The notes under the pieces: model-generated | What the model was told of the DNA's origin: nothing | The model's database searches: none | Seen by the model: the letters and a program-made list of their open reading frames with translations, nothing else | Shown: positions 1 through 38,203 of the stretch, one piece after another | Position numbering within the stretch: the first letter of the stretch is position 1 | Layout of the letters: each line of letters begins with the position of its first letter | Translations under genes and position numbers: made by a program | NCBI RefSeq assembly: GCF_011043545.1 | Contig: NZ_JAAKGP010000001.1 | Span: 310,001 to 374,000, forward strand | Origin: Rhodobacter sp. SGA-6-6 | Lineage (GTDB): Bacteria; Pseudomonadota; Alphaproteobacteria; Rhodobacterales; Rhodobacteraceae | DNA: 64,000 nt | Reading direction: 5' to 3'

Positions 1-489
1 GCGGCCGGGAAGTGGCCGGCCTGGAAGGCGCGGTTCCCGGGGGTGGAGCTGCACATGATCGGCCCCTTGCAGACCAACAAGGCCAAGGTGGCGGTGGAAC
101 TGTTCGACGTCCTCCATACCGTCGACCGGCCCTCGCTGGCCGAGAAGCTGGCCCGGCTGGCCGATTCCCGCGGGGTCTCGCCGCAGTTGTTCGTGCAGGT
201 GAACACCGGGGAGGAGCCGCAGAAGGCCGGCGTGCTGCCCGCCGACGCCGATGCCTTCGTGGCCGCCTGCCGCGGCATGGGCCTGCCGGTGGTTGGCCTG
301 ATGTGCATCCCGCCCGAGGGCGAGGACTCCGCCCCCCATTTCGCCCTGCTGAAAGCGATGGCCGAGCGGAACGGGTTGACCGGCCTGTCGATGGGGATGA
401 GCGGGGATTTCGAAAGCGCCATCGCCCATGGCGCGACGCATGTCCGGGTGGGCAGCGCCATCTTCGGGGAACGGGATTACGCCCGGTAG
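1..489 (+). CDS. yggS: YggS/PLPBP-family pyridoxal-phosphate homeostasis protein, 5' end missing
   Basis: Reading frame 1 is open from the first base, so the start lies outside the window; 162 codons plus stop remain of a protein normally about 215-230 residues. The frame contains H-x-IGPLQTNK, the family's signature after the PLP-lysine strand, then VNTGEEPQKAG and GLMCIPP, and near the end LSMGMSGDFESAIAHGATHVRVGSAIFG, the phosphate-binding end of the TIM barrel (SMGMS and RVGSAIFG). Family knowledge: a cytosolic, catalytically silent PLP-binding protein that balances PLP and amino-acid pools. The PLP lysine itself is upstream of the window. It converges with the L,D-transpeptidase gene across a hairpin. 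Confidence 0.93.
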   Translation, partial: AAGKWPAWKARFPGVELHMIGPLQTNKAKVAVELFDVLHTVDRPSLAEKLARLADSRGVSPQLFVQVNTGEEPQKAGVLPADADAFVAACRGMGLPVVGLMCIPPEGEDSAPHFALLKAMAERNGLTGLSMGMSGDFESAIAHGATHVRVGSAIFGERDYAR

Positions 490-510
490 GGCGGGGTTCA
501 CCCCGCCTAC
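486..510. terminator. GTAGG...CCTAC hairpin repeat between convergent genes
   Basis: A near-perfect palindrome built on GGCGGGGTTCACCCCGCC sits over the yggS stop and ends inside the last codons of the convergent L,D-transpeptidase gene. The same core recurs at 33948-34065, so it is a dispersed repeat probably serving here as a bidirectional terminator. There is no T-run, so intrinsic termination is inferred only from the hairpin and position. Confidence 0.55.
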
Positions 511-14152: not shown

Positions 14153-14643
14153 CTCAGCGGGCAGTCCATCACGTCCAGGTCGACGGCCACCCGCGCCTCG
14201 GGCCCGTAGGTCATGCCGGAGACGTTGATGTAAAGCGCACCCCTGTCGGTGAAGATGTCGCTGTCCTTGATCGGAAGGGTGGTGAAGTCCCGGTCCAGTT
14301 TCCAGCCCGAGAACAGCGCGCAATCGGTCTCGAACCGCAGGACATAGCCGTTGAAGGCGGAATCGTAGAACCAGCCGCCGCCGCTGTCGGGATAGGTGAT
14401 CTCCACCCTTTGCGGGCCGATCTCGACCTGCATCGGCACCACCTGCAACCCGCTGTAGATGCCCTCGGGGGCGAAGTCGAACTCCACGCCGTCGCCCACC
14501 ACCACGGTATGGCCGGGGGCTTCCAGGAAGGGCAGCGCCGGGTCGTCCCAGGCCATCACCAGAAAGGTCACCGGCCGCCCCTCCAGCGTGCCCGCCCCGG
14601 CCGGAGTGGCCAGAGCCGCCGCCAGAAGGCAGGCGCGGATCAC
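14149..14643 (-). CDS. Hypothetical secreted protein
   Basis: The 164-residue protein has a short signal peptide ([18 protein letters not shown]) and a predicted beta-rich mature part with few charged clusters, two cysteines (in FETDCALF and the C-terminal DVMDCPLS) that could form a disulfide, and repeated hydrophobic strands. The GTG at 14643 overlaps the accA stop by 4 nt (GTGA), so it is probably coupled to accA. I do not recognise a family. Confidence 0.68.
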
Positions 14644-15599
14644 GCCGCCAGGCCCTTGGACCCCATCGCCAGGAATTTCTCGCGCCGGTCCTTGAGGATG
14701 GCTTCGCGCTTCTTGCCCGACAGCTCCTTCAGCATCGCCTCGATGGCCTTGCCGACGGCATCCACCGCCTCTTTCGGCGCCCGCTGCGCCCCGCCCACGG
14801 GTTCTTTCACCACCCGGTCGATCAGGCCCAGCTTCTGCAGGTCCTGCGCCGTCAGCCGCAAAGCCTCGGCTGCCTCGCGCATCTTCTCGGCGTCCTTCCA
14901 CAGGATCGAGGCGCAGCCCTCGGGGCTGATCACCGAGTAGACCGAGTGTTCCAGCATGGCGATGCGGTTCGCGGTGGCGAAGGCCACCGCCCCGCCCGAG
15001 CCGCCCTCACCGATCACCACCGAGATCAGCGGCACGCCGAGCGACAGGCATTTCTCGGTCGACCGGGCGATGGCCTCGGCCTGTCCGCGTTCCTCGGCGC
15101 CCTTGCCGGGATAGGCGCCGGGGGTGTCAACCAGGGTGATCACCGGCAGGTTGAAACGGTCGGCCAGGTCCATCAGCCGGATCGCCTTGCGATAGCCCTC
15201 GGGCCGGGCCATGCCGAAGTTGCGCTCGATCCGGGTCTTGGTGTCGTGGCCCTTCTCGTGGCCGATCACCACGACGGGGCGGTCGTTGAACCGCGCCAGC
15301 CCGCCCATCACCGCATGGTCGTCGGCAAAGGCGCGGTCGCCGGCCAAGGGCGTGTATTCGCTGAACAGCCCCTCGATGTAGTCCTTGCAATGCGGCCGGT
15401 CCGGGTGCCGCGCCACCTGGCATTTCTGCCAGGCGCTGAGGTTGTTGTAGAGATCGCGCAGCGCGGTCTCGGCCTTGCGGTCCAGCGCCTCGGCCTCTTT
15501 CGAGACGTCCATCCCCTCGCCCTGCCGCGCCATCGCCCGCAGTTCCTCGGCCTTGCCCTCGATCTCGGCCAGGGGCTTCTCGAACTCAAGGTAGATCAT
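14640..15599 (-). CDS. accA: Acetyl-CoA carboxylase carboxyltransferase subunit alpha
   Basis: The 319-residue subunit transfers CO2 from carboxybiotin to acetyl-CoA in fatty-acid synthesis, together with AccD. It is full length, beginning [19 protein letters not shown], with the crotonase-fold core [23 protein letters not shown]-type [31 protein letters not shown] and [17 protein letters not shown]. accD and the biotin components are not in the window. It is followed by the overlapping secreted-protein gene and preceded by the multi-hairpin repeat. Confidence 0.97.
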
Positions 15600-15703
15600 G
15601 CGGAGGACCCTCTTTTGCAGGTTTCCTATATGGCCGGAGAGGGGCCGGAGCGCAACCGGGCAACCGGACCGTCAGCGGCTGAGGGACGTTCCCGGAGAAG
15701 AGC

Positions 15704-15923
15704 CCGCCTGGTCGGGCGGGATCAGGCGAGGCACTGCCTCGCCCCCGCCCGTGCGCAGCAGCGGCACCCGGAAACATTGGTCAGGCTAAACCCCGAGAGG
15801 CCAGCGCCCGACCCGGCGGGCGAGAAGCGCCCGCCGAGGGCGGGGCGGGCGCTGGCCGGGCCTTGGGGGCCCGGCCGGACAAGGGGAAACGTAGCGCCGT
15901 GGCGAAGGCGATGGCCTTCGCCA
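15704..15923. repeat. Multi-hairpin dispersed repeat, copy 1
   Basis: This ~220-nt element shares most of its sequence with 33715-33932. It holds a hairpin GGCGAGGCA/TGCCTCGCC, a large nested stem with arms CCAGCGCCCG and CGGGCGCTGG around CGGCGGGCG/CGCCCGCCG, a stem GGCCGGGCC/GGCCCGGCC, and a terminal GGCGAAGGC/GCCTTCGCC (15901-15909, 15914-15922). Between copies the third stem differs on both arms but stays paired, which points to selection on structure. It fills the gap between the pheS 3' end and accA 5' end. No coding signal is convincing. Confidence 0.75.
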
Positions 15924-15934
15924 GGGAAGCGTTC

Positions 15935-17014
15935 CTAGCGGCTCAGCCCGCCCGGCAGGTCGGGCATGTCCAGCGCCGAGAAGCCGTAGTGGCGCAGCCA
16001 GCGCAGGTCGGATTCGAAGAAGGCGCGCAGGTCGGGGATGCCGTATTTCAGCATGGCGATGCGGTCGATGCCCATGCCGAAGGCGAAGCCCTGCCATTGA
16101 TCGGGGTCGATCCCGCCCGCCGCCAGCACCTTGGGGTGCATCATGCCGGAGCCCAGGATCTCCATCCACTTGTCGCCCTCGCCGATCCGCAGCTGGCCGC
16201 CGACGTTGGAATAGCGGATGTCGACCTCGGCCGAGGGTTCCGTGAAGGGGAAGTGCGAGGCGCGGAAGCGCAGCTCCACCTTGTCGACCTCGAAGAAGGC
16301 GCGGCAGAATTCCTCCAGCGTCCATTTCAGGTTCGCCATCGAGATGTCGCGGTCGATGGCCATGCCCTCGACCTGGTGGAACATCGGGGTGTGGGTCTGG
16401 TCCATGTCCATCCGGTAGACCCGGCCCGGCGCGATGACGCGGACCGGGGCGCCCTGCTCCAGCATGGCGCGCACCTGCACCGGGCTGGTGTGCGTCCGCA
16501 GGACATGCGGCGGGCGGTTGTCGCCTTCCGCGCGGGCCATGAAGAAGGTGTCGTGCTCCTGCCGGGCGGGATGTTCCGGCGGGATGTTCAGCGCGTCGAA
16601 GTTATACCAGTCGGATTCCACCTGCGGCCCCTCGGCCACCGAGAAGCCCATGTCGGCGAAGATCGCCGTCAGCTCGTCCATCACCTGACTGACCGGGTGG
16701 ATGGTGCCCTGCCGCCGCGGGCGGCCCGGCAGGGTGACGTCCAGCCATTCCGACTTCAGCCGCTCGTCCAGCGCGGCATCGGCCAGCGCCGCCTTGCGGG
16801 CGCGGAGCGCGGCGTCGATCTCGTCCTTCAGCGCATTCAGATGGGCGCCGGCGGCCTTGCGCTCCTCGGGGTCCATCTTGCCCAGCGTCGCCATCAGCGC
16901 GGAAATCTCGCCCTTCTTGCCGAGCGCCGCGACGCGGACCTCTTCCAGCGCGGCCTCGCCCGCGGCACCGGCCACGGCTGCGATGTATTTTCCACGGATT
17001 TCGCTCAGGTCCAT
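15935..17014 (-). CDS. pheS: Phenylalanyl-tRNA synthetase alpha subunit
   Basis: The 359-residue catalytic alpha subunit has an N-terminal coiled-coil (about residues 1-85) for tRNA contact and a class II core: motif 2 region [25 protein letters not shown] and motif 3 [18 protein letters not shown], with phenylalanine-pocket [26 protein letters not shown]. It is full length. pheT does not follow; the next gene in the same direction is accA, beyond the multi-hairpin repeat. The beta subunit must be encoded elsewhere. Confidence 0.97.
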
Positions 17015-32090: not shown

Positions 32091-33602
32091 CTACTGCATC
32101 TGCACGCCGTTGACGAAGAGGCTGCCGCCCGCCCGGAACTCGATCTCCGAGACCAGCTGGTCCGGCCCCGCGCCGGGCTTTGCCATCATCGCCAGCCCCA
32201 TCCGCGCGCCCATCACGTCGTCCTCGGACACCACGCCGATCGCCACCAGCGCATCCATCAGCGCGTTGATCCCGTCCAGCGTGACGGTGACCTTGCCCTC
32301 CGGCGCCGGAAAGCCGCCGTAGGAGGCGAGGTCGGCGTTGTCGAAGGTCAGCGCGCCGGTCGCCGCCACCTGCGCCCCCGCCGCCTTGGCCAGCACCTGC
32401 GTCAGGTCCAGCGAGAACAGCTTCACCGGCAGCTCCGGCCCGTCCATCTGCACCGCCGGGTCGAGGATGTCGACCTGCCAGGCGCCGGTGCCCTTCACGT
32501 CCAGGATCGCCGTGACCGGATCGCGCTTCAGCGCGCCGCCCGGGTCGAACATGTTCCACAGGTCCTCGGTCATGGTCAGGTCGACCATCCTGAACAGGGC
32601 CGAGAAATCCGAGGGCTCGGTCGCCTTGGCCACCGGCATCGCCACGCCATAGGCGATCTCGGCGAAGGCGCCCTCCACCATCGGCATCGGGATGTCGAAG
32701 CCGGTGGCGTTGACGGTGCCGCCGGTCACGCCGAAGGCATAGTCCATCCGCTGCGCGTCCAACTTCACATGCGCGCTGCTGCCGGCCAGCGCCACCTCGA
32801 CATGACCGGGCTTGCCGGCCTCGGTCGCATCCACCGACAGGGCGATGGGGCCGGTGCCGTAGCTGCCGTCGACCATGAAGCCCGCCGCCAGCGCCGCCGA
32901 CATGTTCCCCGCCTGCATCAGCTCGGGCGAGACCATCACCGACTTGCCGCCGAACTTCGGCTCGGCCACGGTCAGGGTCACGTCGAAGGTGGTGTTCTGC
33001 TCCGGCTCGCTGCCCTTCACCGCCAGCGCCATGCTGGTGGCGGCGAAGGTGGAATCGTAGCTCTGCCCGCCGCCGGAGGGCGTGGCGGCATAGCTGCCGC
33101 TGAGGCCGGAAAGCGTCAGCCCGCCGGTCACGTCCACCGGCTTGCCCTCGGCATCGGTCACGTCCTTGGCCGTCAGCGTCAGCGCCTTGGCGGTGAAGTC
33201 GAACTTCGGCGCATCGACGGTGCCGGAGGCGACGACCTTCATCTCCTCCTGTCCCACCACCAGCGTGGCGGAGGACTTGTCGCTGCCCTCGGTGGCGGTC
33301 AGATTCACGTCATAGGCCGGCGGATAGGTGATCTCGACCGAGCCGTCGCCGAGGTCGCGGAAGCTGACCTCGGGGATGGTGGAGGCGATCACCGGGCCGT
33401 CGGGCACGGTCATCCCCACCGAGATACCGCTGACCACCAGCGTGTCGCCGTTGCGCGCCGTGCCGGTGGCGCTGATCGTCTGGCCCGCCGCGGCGGACAT
33501 CGCCTGCCAGCCCTCCCAGGCCTCTTCGGGCGTCAGGGACAGCGCGGATTGCGCGGACAGGGCCAAGGCAAGCGCCGTGGCGCCGGAAAGGCGGGAATAC
33601 AT
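32091..33602 (-). CDS. DUF2125 periplasmic protein B, paralogue of the following gene
   Basis: The 503-residue protein has a signal peptide (MYSRLSGATALALALSAQSALS) and a beta-rich, Ala/Gly/Thr-rich body. Positions aligned with protein A include LTPEEAWEGWQAM, MTEDLWNMFDPGGALKRDPVTAILDVKGTG and DQLVSEIEFRAGGSLFVNGVQM, so the pair arose by tandem duplication. The frame is open further upstream, but ATG 33602 places the signal peptide first. The preceding 531 bp hold only repeats. Confidence 0.83.
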   Translation of the reverse strand: MYSRLSGATALALALSAQSALSLTPEEAWEGWQAMSAAAGQTISATGTARNGDTLVVSGISVGMTVPDGPVIASTIPEVSFRDLGDGSVEITYPPAYDVNLTATEGSDKSSATLVVGQEEMKVVASGTVDAPKFDFTAKALTLTAKDVTDAEGKPVDVTGGLTLSGLSGSYAATPSGGGQSYDSTFAATSMALAVKGSEPEQNTTFDVTLTVAEPKFGGKSVMVSPELMQAGNMSAALAAGFMVDGSYGTGPIALSVDATEAGKPGHVEVALAGSSAHVKLDAQRMDYAFGVTGGTVNATGFDIPMPMVEGAFAEIAYGVAMPVAKATEPSDFSALFRMVDLTMTEDLWNMFDPGGALKRDPVTAILDVKGTGAWQVDILDPAVQMDGPELPVKLFSLDLTQVLAKAAGAQVAATGALTFDNADLASYGGFPAPEGKVTVTLDGINALMDALVAIGVVSEDDVMGARMGLAMMAKPGAGPDQLVSEIEFRAGGSLFVNGVQMQ

Positions 33603-33714
33603 GATCGAACCCCAGGTTTTTTCAATGCCGCCGCCATGGTGTCGCCCGCGGGCCGCGGGCGCAAGAGGAAAGGCGCCGCAGGGATGGCAGGCATTCCTGA
33701 CGTGGGCTCTTCCT

Positions 33715-33932
33715 CGCCTGACCCGGGCGGGAACAGGCGAGGCACTGCCTCGCCCCGCCCGTGCGTGACATGTCAACCGGAGGCGGTGGCAGCCCTGAAC
33801 CCCGAGAGGCCAGCGCCCGACCCGGCGGGCGAGAAGCGCCCGCCGAGGGGCGGGCGGGCGCTGGCCGGGTGCTTGGGGCACCCGGCCGGACAAGGGGATG
33901 TTCCGCCGTGGCGAAGGCACACGCCTTCGCCA
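33715..33932. repeat. Multi-hairpin dispersed repeat, copy 2
   Basis: This copy aligns with 15704-15923. It keeps GGCGAGGCA/TGCCTCGCC, the nested CCAGCGCCCG...CGGGCGCTGG stem and the terminal GGCGAAGGC/GCCTTCGCC (33910-33918, 33923-33931). The third stem is GGCCGGGTGC/GCACCCGGCC here, against GGCCGGGCC/GGCCCGGCC in copy 1, so both arms changed together. It lies in the divergent gap between the DUF2125 genes and the enoyl-CoA hydratase gene. Confidence 0.75.
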
Positions 33933-33947
33933 ATGCACCGGCGCAAA

Positions 33948-34065
33948 GGCGGGGTGAACCCCGCCCTACACCGGCCCCACCCGCCGGACCGGCCGGAATG
34001 ATCCTCGTAGGGCGGGGTTCACCCCGCCGATCCGCCCTCTCCGGGTAGGGCGGGGTCTCCCCGCC
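33948..34065. repeat. Cluster of three GGCGGGG hairpin repeats
   Basis: Three copies of the GGCGGGGTTCACCCCGCC-type palindrome (33948-33969 in reverse, 34007-34028, 34045-34065) lie within 118 bp. The last carries TCT in place of TTCA. The same unit ends yggS at 486-510. With the multi-hairpin element just before, the 33603-34133 gap is almost wholly repeat. Confidence 0.6.
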
Positions 34066-34133: not shown

Positions 34134-34745
34134 ATGATCCAGATCCAGGACGAAACCGACGGCCTCCTGCGGGTGCTCCGCCTGAACCGGCCGGACAAGG
34201 CCAATGCCTTGACCGCCGACATGCTGGAAGCCCTCGCCCTCGCCGTCGAGGGCGCCGGAAAGGCCAGGGCGCTGATCCTCACCGGCGAGGGCCGGGTGTT
34301 CTCGGCCGGGGCCGATCTGGAGGCCGCCGCTGCGGGCCTTGCCACCTCGCCGCTGTGGGAGCGGCTCTCCGCCGCCATCGCCGCATTCCCCGGCCTGACC
34401 GTGGCCGCGCTGAACGGCACCCTGGCCGGCGGCGCCTGCGGCATGGCGCTGGCCTGCGACCTGCGCCTCGCGGTGCCGGGGGCCAAGGTGTTCTACCCGG
34501 TGATGCGGCTCGGCTACCTGCCGCAGCCCTCGGACCCCGCCCGCCTTGCCGCGCTGGTCGGCCCGGCGCGGGCGAAGCTGATCCTGATGGCCGGCGCAAG
34601 GGTGGAAGCCGAGGAGGCCCTGTCCTGGGGCCTGATCGACCGCATCGTTCCGGCCGAGAGCCTGCTGGACAGCGCCCGCAGCCTTTGCGCCGATGTGCTG
34701 GCGGCCGGCCCCGGCCACGCCGCCGCGATCAAGCGGATGGTCTGA
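34134..34745 (+). CDS. Short enoyl-CoA hydratase/isomerase family protein
   Basis: The 203-residue crotonase-fold protein has the oxyanion-hole segments GRVFSAGADLEA and LNGTLAGGACGMALACDLRLA. It is about 50 residues shorter than typical enoyl-CoA hydratases (near 255), ending at AAIKRMV, so the C-terminal trimerisation helices are reduced. The catalytic Glu positions are not obvious at the second site (YLPQPSDPARL in place of the usual PxxGG). Substrate is unknown; it may be an isomerase or a non-hydratase member. It stands alone and converges on the TSUP gene. Confidence 0.83.
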   Translation: MIQIQDETDGLLRVLRLNRPDKANALTADMLEALALAVEGAGKARALILTGEGRVFSAGADLEAAAAGLATSPLWERLSAAIAAFPGLTVAALNGTLAGGACGMALACDLRLAVPGAKVFYPVMRLGYLPQPSDPARLAALVGPARAKLILMAGARVEAEEALSWGLIDRIVPAESLLDSARSLCADVLAAGPGHAAAIKRMV

Positions 34746-37045: not shown

Positions 37046-38203
37046 ATGACCGACTTGAAGACCCCGGCCGCGCTGCCGGCAAACCCGCGTTTCTCCTCGG
37101 GCCCCTGCGCAAAGATCCCCGATTATTCCCTGGACTTGCTGGCGGGCGCCCCCCTGGGCCGCAGCCACCGCGCCGCCGTGGGCAAGGCGAAGCTGAAGGA
37201 AGCCATCGACCTGACGCGCGAAATCCTCGGCGTTCCGAACGGCTATCGCATCGGCATCGTCCCCGCCTCGGACACCGGCGCCGTCGAAATGGCGCTGTGG
37301 AGCCTGCTGGGCGCCCGGCCGGTCGAGATGCTGGCCTGGGAAAGCTTCGGCGAGGGCTGGGTCACCGATGTGGTCAAGCAGCTGAAGCTGGATGCCACGG
37401 TGCGGCGCGCGCCCTATGGGCAGATCGTCGACCTGACCACCGTCGATTTCGACCGCGATGTGGTCTTCACCTGGAACGGCACCACCTCGGGCTGCCGGGT
37501 CCCGAACGGCGATGCCATCCCGGCGGACCGGCTGGGCCTGACGATCTGCGACGCCACCAGCGCCGCCTTCGCCATGGACCTGCCCTGGGACAAGCTGGAC
37601 GTCGTAACCTTCTCCTGGCAGAAGGTCCTCGGCGGCGAGGGCGCGCATGGGATGCTGATCCTGTCCCCCCGCGCGGTGGAGCGGCTGGAGACCTACACCC
37701 CCGCCTGGCCGCTGCCGAAGATCTTCCGGCTGACCGCCAAGGGCAAGCTGAACGAAGGCATCTTCGCCGGCGAGACCATCAACACCCCCTCGATGCTGGC
37801 GAACGAGGATTACCTCGTGGCGCTGAAATGGGCGAAGTCGGTCGGCGGCCTCAGGGGCTTGATCGCCCGGGCCGAGGCGAATGCGAAGACGGTCTGGGAC
37901 TTCTGCGCCAGCCGCGACTGGATCGCCAATCTGGCCGAGACGCCGGAGATCGCCTCCACCACCAGCGTCTGCCTGAAGTTCACCGACCCGCGGATCGTGG
38001 ACGGCGCAGCCTTCGCCAAGGCGGTGGCGAAACGGATCGAGACGGCGGGGGCGGGCTACGACCTCGGCGCCTACCGCGACGCGCCCCCGGGCCTGCGGAT
38101 CTGGTGCGGATCGACGGTGGAAACCGCCGATGTGGCCGCGCTGCTGCCCTGGATCGAATGGGCCTACCGCGCCGAGATTGCGGCGCTGGCCGAGGCCGCT
38201 TGA
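37046..38203 (+). CDS. serC: Phosphoserine transaminase
   Basis: The 385-residue PLP enzyme converts 3-phosphohydroxypyruvate to phosphoserine. It is of the alphaproteobacterial SerC type: [88 protein letters not shown] with the PLP lysine. The ATG at 37046 follows GGAAGG. serA follows after 100 bp that contain two hairpins. Confidence 0.96.

Follow-up and report, generated by a model that had tools for sequence, protein, structure and literature searches.

Two copies of a four-hairpin element in the window

The window (the whole stretch of 64,000 nt from Rhodobacter sp. SGA-6-6 that was analysed) contains two copies of a multi-hairpin element, both on the + strand and both between genes. Copy 1 (15713–15923; model match 118.6 bits) lies between a pheS-like gene (15935–17014, − strand; Pfam tRNA-synt_2d and Phe_tRNA-synt_N), whose stop is 11–12 nt from the last hairpin of the element, and an accA-like gene (14640–15599, − strand; Pfam ACCA) situated downstream of the copy in the sense of transcription. 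Copy 2 (33724–33932; 117.3 bits) occupies a divergent gap, where it is faced by the start of a − strand gene (32091–33602) at 121 nt and by that of an enoyl-CoA hydratase family gene (34134–34745, + strand). A preliminary description of this DNA had reported two intergenic copies sharing one element, and both are present as described, in the same orientation; the extent then claimed needs adjusting to the borders given here, and ‘two loci’ was an undercount, as set out below.

The conserved unit, over which copies align for approximately 210 nt, opens with the H1 outer stem, closes with H4 and has the order H1, a variable linker, the nested hairpin H2, H3, a further linker and H4. All hairpins are given on the + strand. 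In copy 1, H1 (15713–15751) has the outer stem CGGGCGG/CCGCCCG and an inner hairpin (15725–15743; GGCGAGGC-ACT-GCCTCGCC). H2 (15799–15857) is a 12-bp stem (GGCCAGCGCCCG/CGGGCGCTGGCC) around a second hairpin with the loop AGAAG (15815–15835; GGCGGGCG-AGAAG-CGCCCGCC), H3 (15858–15872; GGGCC/GGCCC) is a short stem and H4 (15900–15923; TGGCGAAGGC-GATG-GCCTTCGCCA) pairs over 10 bp around a loop of 4 nt. The corresponding parts of copy 2 are H1 (33724–33761, with its inner hairpin at 33736–33754), H2 (33808–33866), H3 (33867–33883; GGGTGC/GCACCC, a compensatory variant) and H4 (33909–33932; TGGCGAAGGC-ACAC-GCCTTCGCCA). In the third stem, copy 1 therefore has GGCCGGGCC..GGCCCGGCC where copy 2 has GGCCGGGTGC..GCACCCGGCC, with both arms changed and pairing kept, exactly as had been claimed. 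GGCC segments at the base of H2 and of H3 allow two mutually exclusive pairings. Within the window H1, H2 and H4 were only found together, never apart.

For each of the two regions, none of 200 dinucleotide shuffles folded as well as the native sequence (15700–15935, z −5.08; 33700–33945, z −4.09). By eye, many copies seemed to have a terminal stem that would close the entire element; this was rejected, as flank-to-flank pairing (−10.58 kcal/mol) equalled that of shuffled flanks (−10.64 kcal/mol).

Copy number and conservation within the genome

The 21-nt inner hairpin of H2, searched with up to two mismatches, gave 109 forward and 84 reverse matches (193 in total) in the 4.29-Mb genome, compared with none for the reversed pattern. 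When the genome was searched at the DNA level, 40 of 465 candidates were scored, and the identity was ≥87 % in every one of them. Of the approximately 193 copies, 116 were read, a non-random sample made up of the first 100 listed and the top matches; two that had no recognisable end and one too near the end of its stretch were dropped, leaving 113 for analysis. All but one of these were 198–212 nt long, the remaining one being 178 nt.

Conservation was concentrated in the stems. The 88 columns of the H1, H2 and H4 stems had a mean consensus share of 99.1 %, compared with 81.3 % for the other 123 columns, H3 included. Variation of H3 within the genome is compensatory: 74 copies carried CC/GG, 12 AC/GT, nine TGC/GCA and nine other combinations, and nine were not matched by the pattern.

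Among the mismatches in stems other than H3, G.T pairs outnumbered A.C pairs (22 versus 9, p 0.03). The remaining columns mutate G>A more often than C>T, and against the background ratio from the other columns, H3 included, the excess of G.T had a p-value of 0.0007. These ratios hint that the + strand may be the folded strand in this genome. The hint was not confirmed in Frigidibacter (5 versus 4), nor was the excess significant in the cross-genus set (71 versus 55, p 0.18). A motif like GARTGTCGATC followed H4 at four loci (L016, L132, L142 and L146), copies in two genera.

Taxonomic range and covariation

An exact 17-nt core was found in 10 of 295 genomes of the family (one genome per genus). 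Real elements surrounded it in this genome (G000), in Frigidibacter albus SP32 (G217) and in G259, G286, G190 and G024; the single matches in G211, G265, G165 and G267 stood without a surrounding element and appear fortuitous. Carriers of the H2 pattern, among the matches listed (at least 84 stretches), included Rhodobacter capsulatus SP108, R. viridis, F. albus, Pseudorhodobacter, Fuscovulum blasticum and Amaricoccus. The element thus has some 190 copies here and many in several related genera, including the model organism R. capsulatus. Copy number jumps among related species: a covariance model gave at least 150 matches each in this genome and G286, 82 in G259 and 46 in F. albus, and only three, none and none in the congeners G001, G007 and G012. 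Tandem copies at a spacing of 221–248 nt were present in Rhodobacter-named and other Rhodobacteraceae metagenome-assembled genomes and in G286.

Within the order, 196 genomes from 88 genera were searched with the model at E ≤1e-4, and 68 of them, from 44 genera, gave matches; this outer range is uncertain because many matches were weak (45–65 bits), E-values were rough and there was no control group. Of nine distant loci, one (L321) possessed all four hairpins with new stem sequences, and in the other eight only the H2 and H3 part was recognised, by eye. Similarly, in 90 copies from relatives passed through a simple hairpin finder, some had no recognised H1 or H4. Plasmids yielded two weak matches, both in Leisingera, and phages and viral contigs none. 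No Rfam 15 family reached its gathering score at the element, either in the window or at the nine distant loci; at one of the latter (L323) a sub-threshold ar35 match (25.5 of the 45 bits required) overlapped it. No description of the element was found in Rfam 15 or in the portions of the open-licence full-text literature that were consulted (including PMC2864571, PMC6006769 and PMC12306157), and the family, which is large, is apparently new to the literature.

Stem sequences differ across genera and still pair, as seen for H1 (GGCGAGGC, GGAAACGC, GGAAAAGC and GGAAAGGC) and H4 (GGCGAAGGC, GGCAGGGGC, GGCAAAGGC, GGCCGAGGC and others). In a cross-genus set of 37 sequences hand-picked for diversity, 14 of 38 stem pairs had changes on both sides, compared with a shuffled expectation of 6.3 ± 1.2 (none of 500 shuffles as high), and in H4 this applied to eight of the 10 pairs. 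These shuffles do not preserve relatedness; slid controls do, and on sliding the pairing partner the proportion of paired cells fell from 94.6 % to ≤47 %. That the inner hairpin of H2 is invariant in the alignment is partly an artefact, because the same sequence had been used to collect most loci. The element is a structured RNA or ssDNA element with compensatory changes above both the shuffled and the slid controls. The preliminary description had proposed selection on structure rather than neutral duplication, a view that would have failed had only two copies existed without covariation, or had the element lain in a conserved coding frame. Extra copies exist, no such frame was seen in the gene calls, and selection on structure is supported because stem columns are more conserved than the remainder and stems covary across genera. 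Judged from these patterns, selection clearly maintains the folds. The folded single strand may be RNA or ssDNA, and action as RNA in the cell is a prediction.

Turnover between Frigidibacter species

F. albus SP32 was compared with Frigidibacter sp. C8_maxbin.052 (G310) and a third Frigidibacter genome, G307. Elements in Frigidibacter fell into three length classes (approximately 185–192, 203–214 and 261–282 nt) that differ within H2. For ten of 20 sampled F. albus loci, the orthologous gap of G310 also contained an element, 40 of the 52 G310 matches having been sampled. At two of these ten shared sites the element was inverted, and at two its length class differed (L249/L293 and L255/L298). 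The six remaining pairs had an identity of 0.50–0.60 (mean 0.56) in variable columns, compared with 0.54 ± 0.07 in non-orthologous pairs (n=507). In three of the six, the flanks were orthologous on both sides (76–96 % identity, against 46–47 % for random pairs), in two on one side only and in L256/L265 on neither. As flanks were orthologous and interiors at random level, position was inherited and the interior was not, at some sites. Such a pattern favours either gene conversion or a new insertion where a copy was already present, although saturation of the linkers would likewise make orthologous copies look unrelated.

Two sites occupied in both F. albus and G310 had no element in G307, where other sequence (approximately 90 and 970 nt) was present and no clean insertion footprint was seen. 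Target-site duplications, which the preliminary description had proposed to look for at the borders, were not recognised by eye at the ten shared and two empty sites. At L242 in F. albus, a + copy lies beside an apparently decayed H1 of opposite orientation, which matches the intact inverted sister copy L264; this is perhaps a replacement caught midway.

Genomic context of the copies

Any overlap between the 113 copies and called genes was ≤30 nt; one copy (L050) overlapped the end of a gene by 12 nt. Genes were called with a home-made codon-usage gene finder, compared by eye with the ORFs of the window, and the non-overlap is partly built in because element positions were scored as non-coding. 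On these calls the copies lie in non-coding gaps, which agrees with the earlier statement that no coding signal accompanies the element. By neighbouring genes, 47 copies were in convergent, 55 in tandem (co-directional) and 11 in divergent gaps, with a median distance of 33–34 nt to stops and 99–124 nt to starts. Gaps of ≥30 nt numbered 37 convergent, 150 tandem and 56 divergent in 400 kb sampled from another species (G307), and 3, 21 and 9, respectively, in the window; the contexts of the copies differ from the G307 gap classes (p 2e-14).

That the element belongs to a class of structure-selected, high-copy, non-autonomous intergenic repeats is well supported; its mechanism we infer. The best explanation is probably that of a non-coding, high-copy repeat family of Rhodobacteraceae, defined by its fold, which a host factor copies or exchanges. 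A trans-acting host factor would recognise a folded single strand, RNA or ssDNA; copying or exchange of the element by that factor would fix stem sequences within a genome while linkers drift; and insertions would survive chiefly just after stops, where a strong hairpin may be harmless or may help to fix mRNA 3′ ends. Against this explanation, the analysis revealed neither machinery nor excision products, target duplications or a clean footprint, and the orientation bias of this genome did not recur in three Frigidibacter genomes.

The main rival is a host function at mRNA 3′ ends, a rather doubtful alternative as a full explanation but one that may coexist with mobility. A hairpin cluster after stops would act as a barrier to 3′–5′ exonucleases or would terminate transcription arriving from one side or from both, and purifying selection at each site would fix the stems; strict stem conservation could equally reflect such a function at every site. 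The excess of convergent gaps and the short distance to stops fit this proposal, as do six of the nine distant loci in other genera, which were ≤45 nt from a called stop (element positions again being scored as non-coding), and the six shared interspecies sites, where stems were conserved and variable columns were at random level. Against it stand a copy number that ranges from 0 to at least 150 among congeners and near relatives, the existence of tandem arrays, the two flipped sites out of ten, and the tandem gaps, which favoured antisense over sense copies (35 versus 20). Hairpin energy alone, moreover, needs no such conservation at the sequence level. An ordinary intrinsic terminator was rejected because TTTT was nearly absent at both ends of the element (within 20 nt past H4 in 0 of 113 copies, and before H1 on the other strand in two of 113).

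Orientation along the chromosome

On contigs C1, C12 and C23, 62 of 73 copies were on the majority strand of their contig, and this held in each context (majority/minority: convergent 26/3, divergent 6/1, antisense 17/6, sense 13/1). The KOPS-like octamer GGGNAGGG points along replication in Escherichia coli. It was scarce on the majority element strand of the three contigs (18 versus 67 over 250,055 unique bases, p 8e-8), and its count on the element's own strand at 104 loci on all contigs was 36 versus 83. GC3 skew concurred on the three large contigs and contradicted on C3 and C6. In this genome, orientation follows chromosome direction.

The bias was absent in Frigidibacter: 13 versus 14 in F. 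albus, 15 versus 19 in G310 and 16 of 31 in G307, where 31 of 32 matches were used, the one excluded being an overlapping reverse match. The replichores of G307 were assigned with GGGNAGGG because GC skew was too weak there; the octamer split the genome clearly, 100 versus 20 (for null splits the maximum was 48, against 80). Orientation bias is therefore a feature of the lineage and not of the family. A structure-addressed mobile element is a tentative and less probable proposal, in which a protein-free multi-hairpin RNA or ssDNA would have fixed berths after stops in different species and its copies would be repeatedly replaced there. Replacement would sometimes be inverted, and the host machinery carrying it out would respond to the fold and, in certain hosts, also to the course of replication.

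Machinery and comparison with known repeats

No Y1_Tnp match was found in 13 genomes of the genus, this genome included, and in 13 genomes with and without the element the only match was marginal (G259); a control set was positive in five of 14 genomes. RVT_1 was present in this genome, G012, G307 and G259, and absent from the carriers F. albus, G310, G286, G190, G024 and G001. The distribution of the element follows neither that of Y1 transposase nor that of reverse transcriptase, and no partner gene was found with the two profiles. The earlier suggestion of a MITE-like repeat is borne out only in part: the element is dispersed, high-copy, non-coding and of polymorphic presence, and terminal inverted repeats, target-site duplications and, in a search that covered Y1_Tnp and RVT_1, a transposase were looked for and not found.

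Elements of the REP, BIME and REPIN type are intergenic hairpins predicted to fold as ssDNA or mRNA, according to two reports (PMC3733652, PMC3116915). Like these GTAG- or CGTC-tagged elements, the present one consists of short intergenic hairpins at high copy number in lineage-specific families; unlike them, it has four distinct hairpins in a fixed order over approximately 210 nt instead of a REP pair. It also has no GTAG at its ends (of 113 copies, two had GTAG within the 12 nt that precede H1 and none had CTAC within the 12 nt past H4), and its genome has no detected Y1 transposase. Were such an element moved on the template of the lagging strand by a transposase of the Y1 type (IS200/TnpA_REP), the hairpins, the intergenic location, the copy number and the orientation relative to the octamer on the three contigs would be accounted for. 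This mode of movement is nevertheless very unlikely: barring a gene that has been lost, or that the draft assembly fails to show, it stands mostly refuted in the present genome. IS200/IS605 ssDNA transposition likewise resembles the element in terminal hairpins and, in this genome only, in chromosome-direction orientation, and differs in that no Y1 transposase was found with the element and the bias is absent in Frigidibacter.

Mobilisation of the RNA in trans by a group II intron or other reverse transcriptase, as a bacterial SINE, would suit the putative folding of the + strand and the directional bias; the six carriers without RVT_1 and the failure of the G.T excess to recur in Frigidibacter or reach significance across genera make it highly improbable. 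Independent small-RNA genes of one family are scarcely credible: the stable, conserved and covarying fold is what they would predict, but there are approximately 190 dispersed copies, no Rfam relative at threshold and no upstream block conserved above 63 % at any of the last eight positions before H1 in the 113 copies, and therefore no obvious shared promoter.

Under the preferred explanation of a fold-defined repeat copied or exchanged by a host factor, the element is best read as REP- or BOX-like in kind, yet not a REP. BOX, ERIC, RIME and CIR repeats are non-coding, approximately 100–300 nt long and intergenic, with strong secondary structure and unknown or borrowed mobility. The element resembles them in these general features, a likeness drawn from description and not from sequence; it differs in that no terminal inverted repeats or target duplications were found, and in its compensatory stem changes across genera and interior turnover at shared sites. 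It offers a test case for repeats without a known transposase and, since its stems are near-uniform within a genome and compensated between genomes, a natural test of how such repeats spread, persist and are exchanged, and of whether hairpin clusters past stops affect mRNA ends.

A GTAG-tagged, REP-like palindrome, GTAGGGCGGGGTTCACCCCGCC, was present in the window at 486–507 (+), 33948–33969 (−) and 34007–34028 (+), and of the 113 copies 16 had its core within 80 nt on their downstream side and 13 on their upstream side; no Y1 transposase was detected in this genome. Two other RNA features of the window were the sRNA SorX (Rfam RF02784; 3028–3103, + strand, 78.8 bits) and a serC leader (RF00517; 36998–37049, + strand, 67.4 bits) at the 5′ end of a gene called at 37046–38203.
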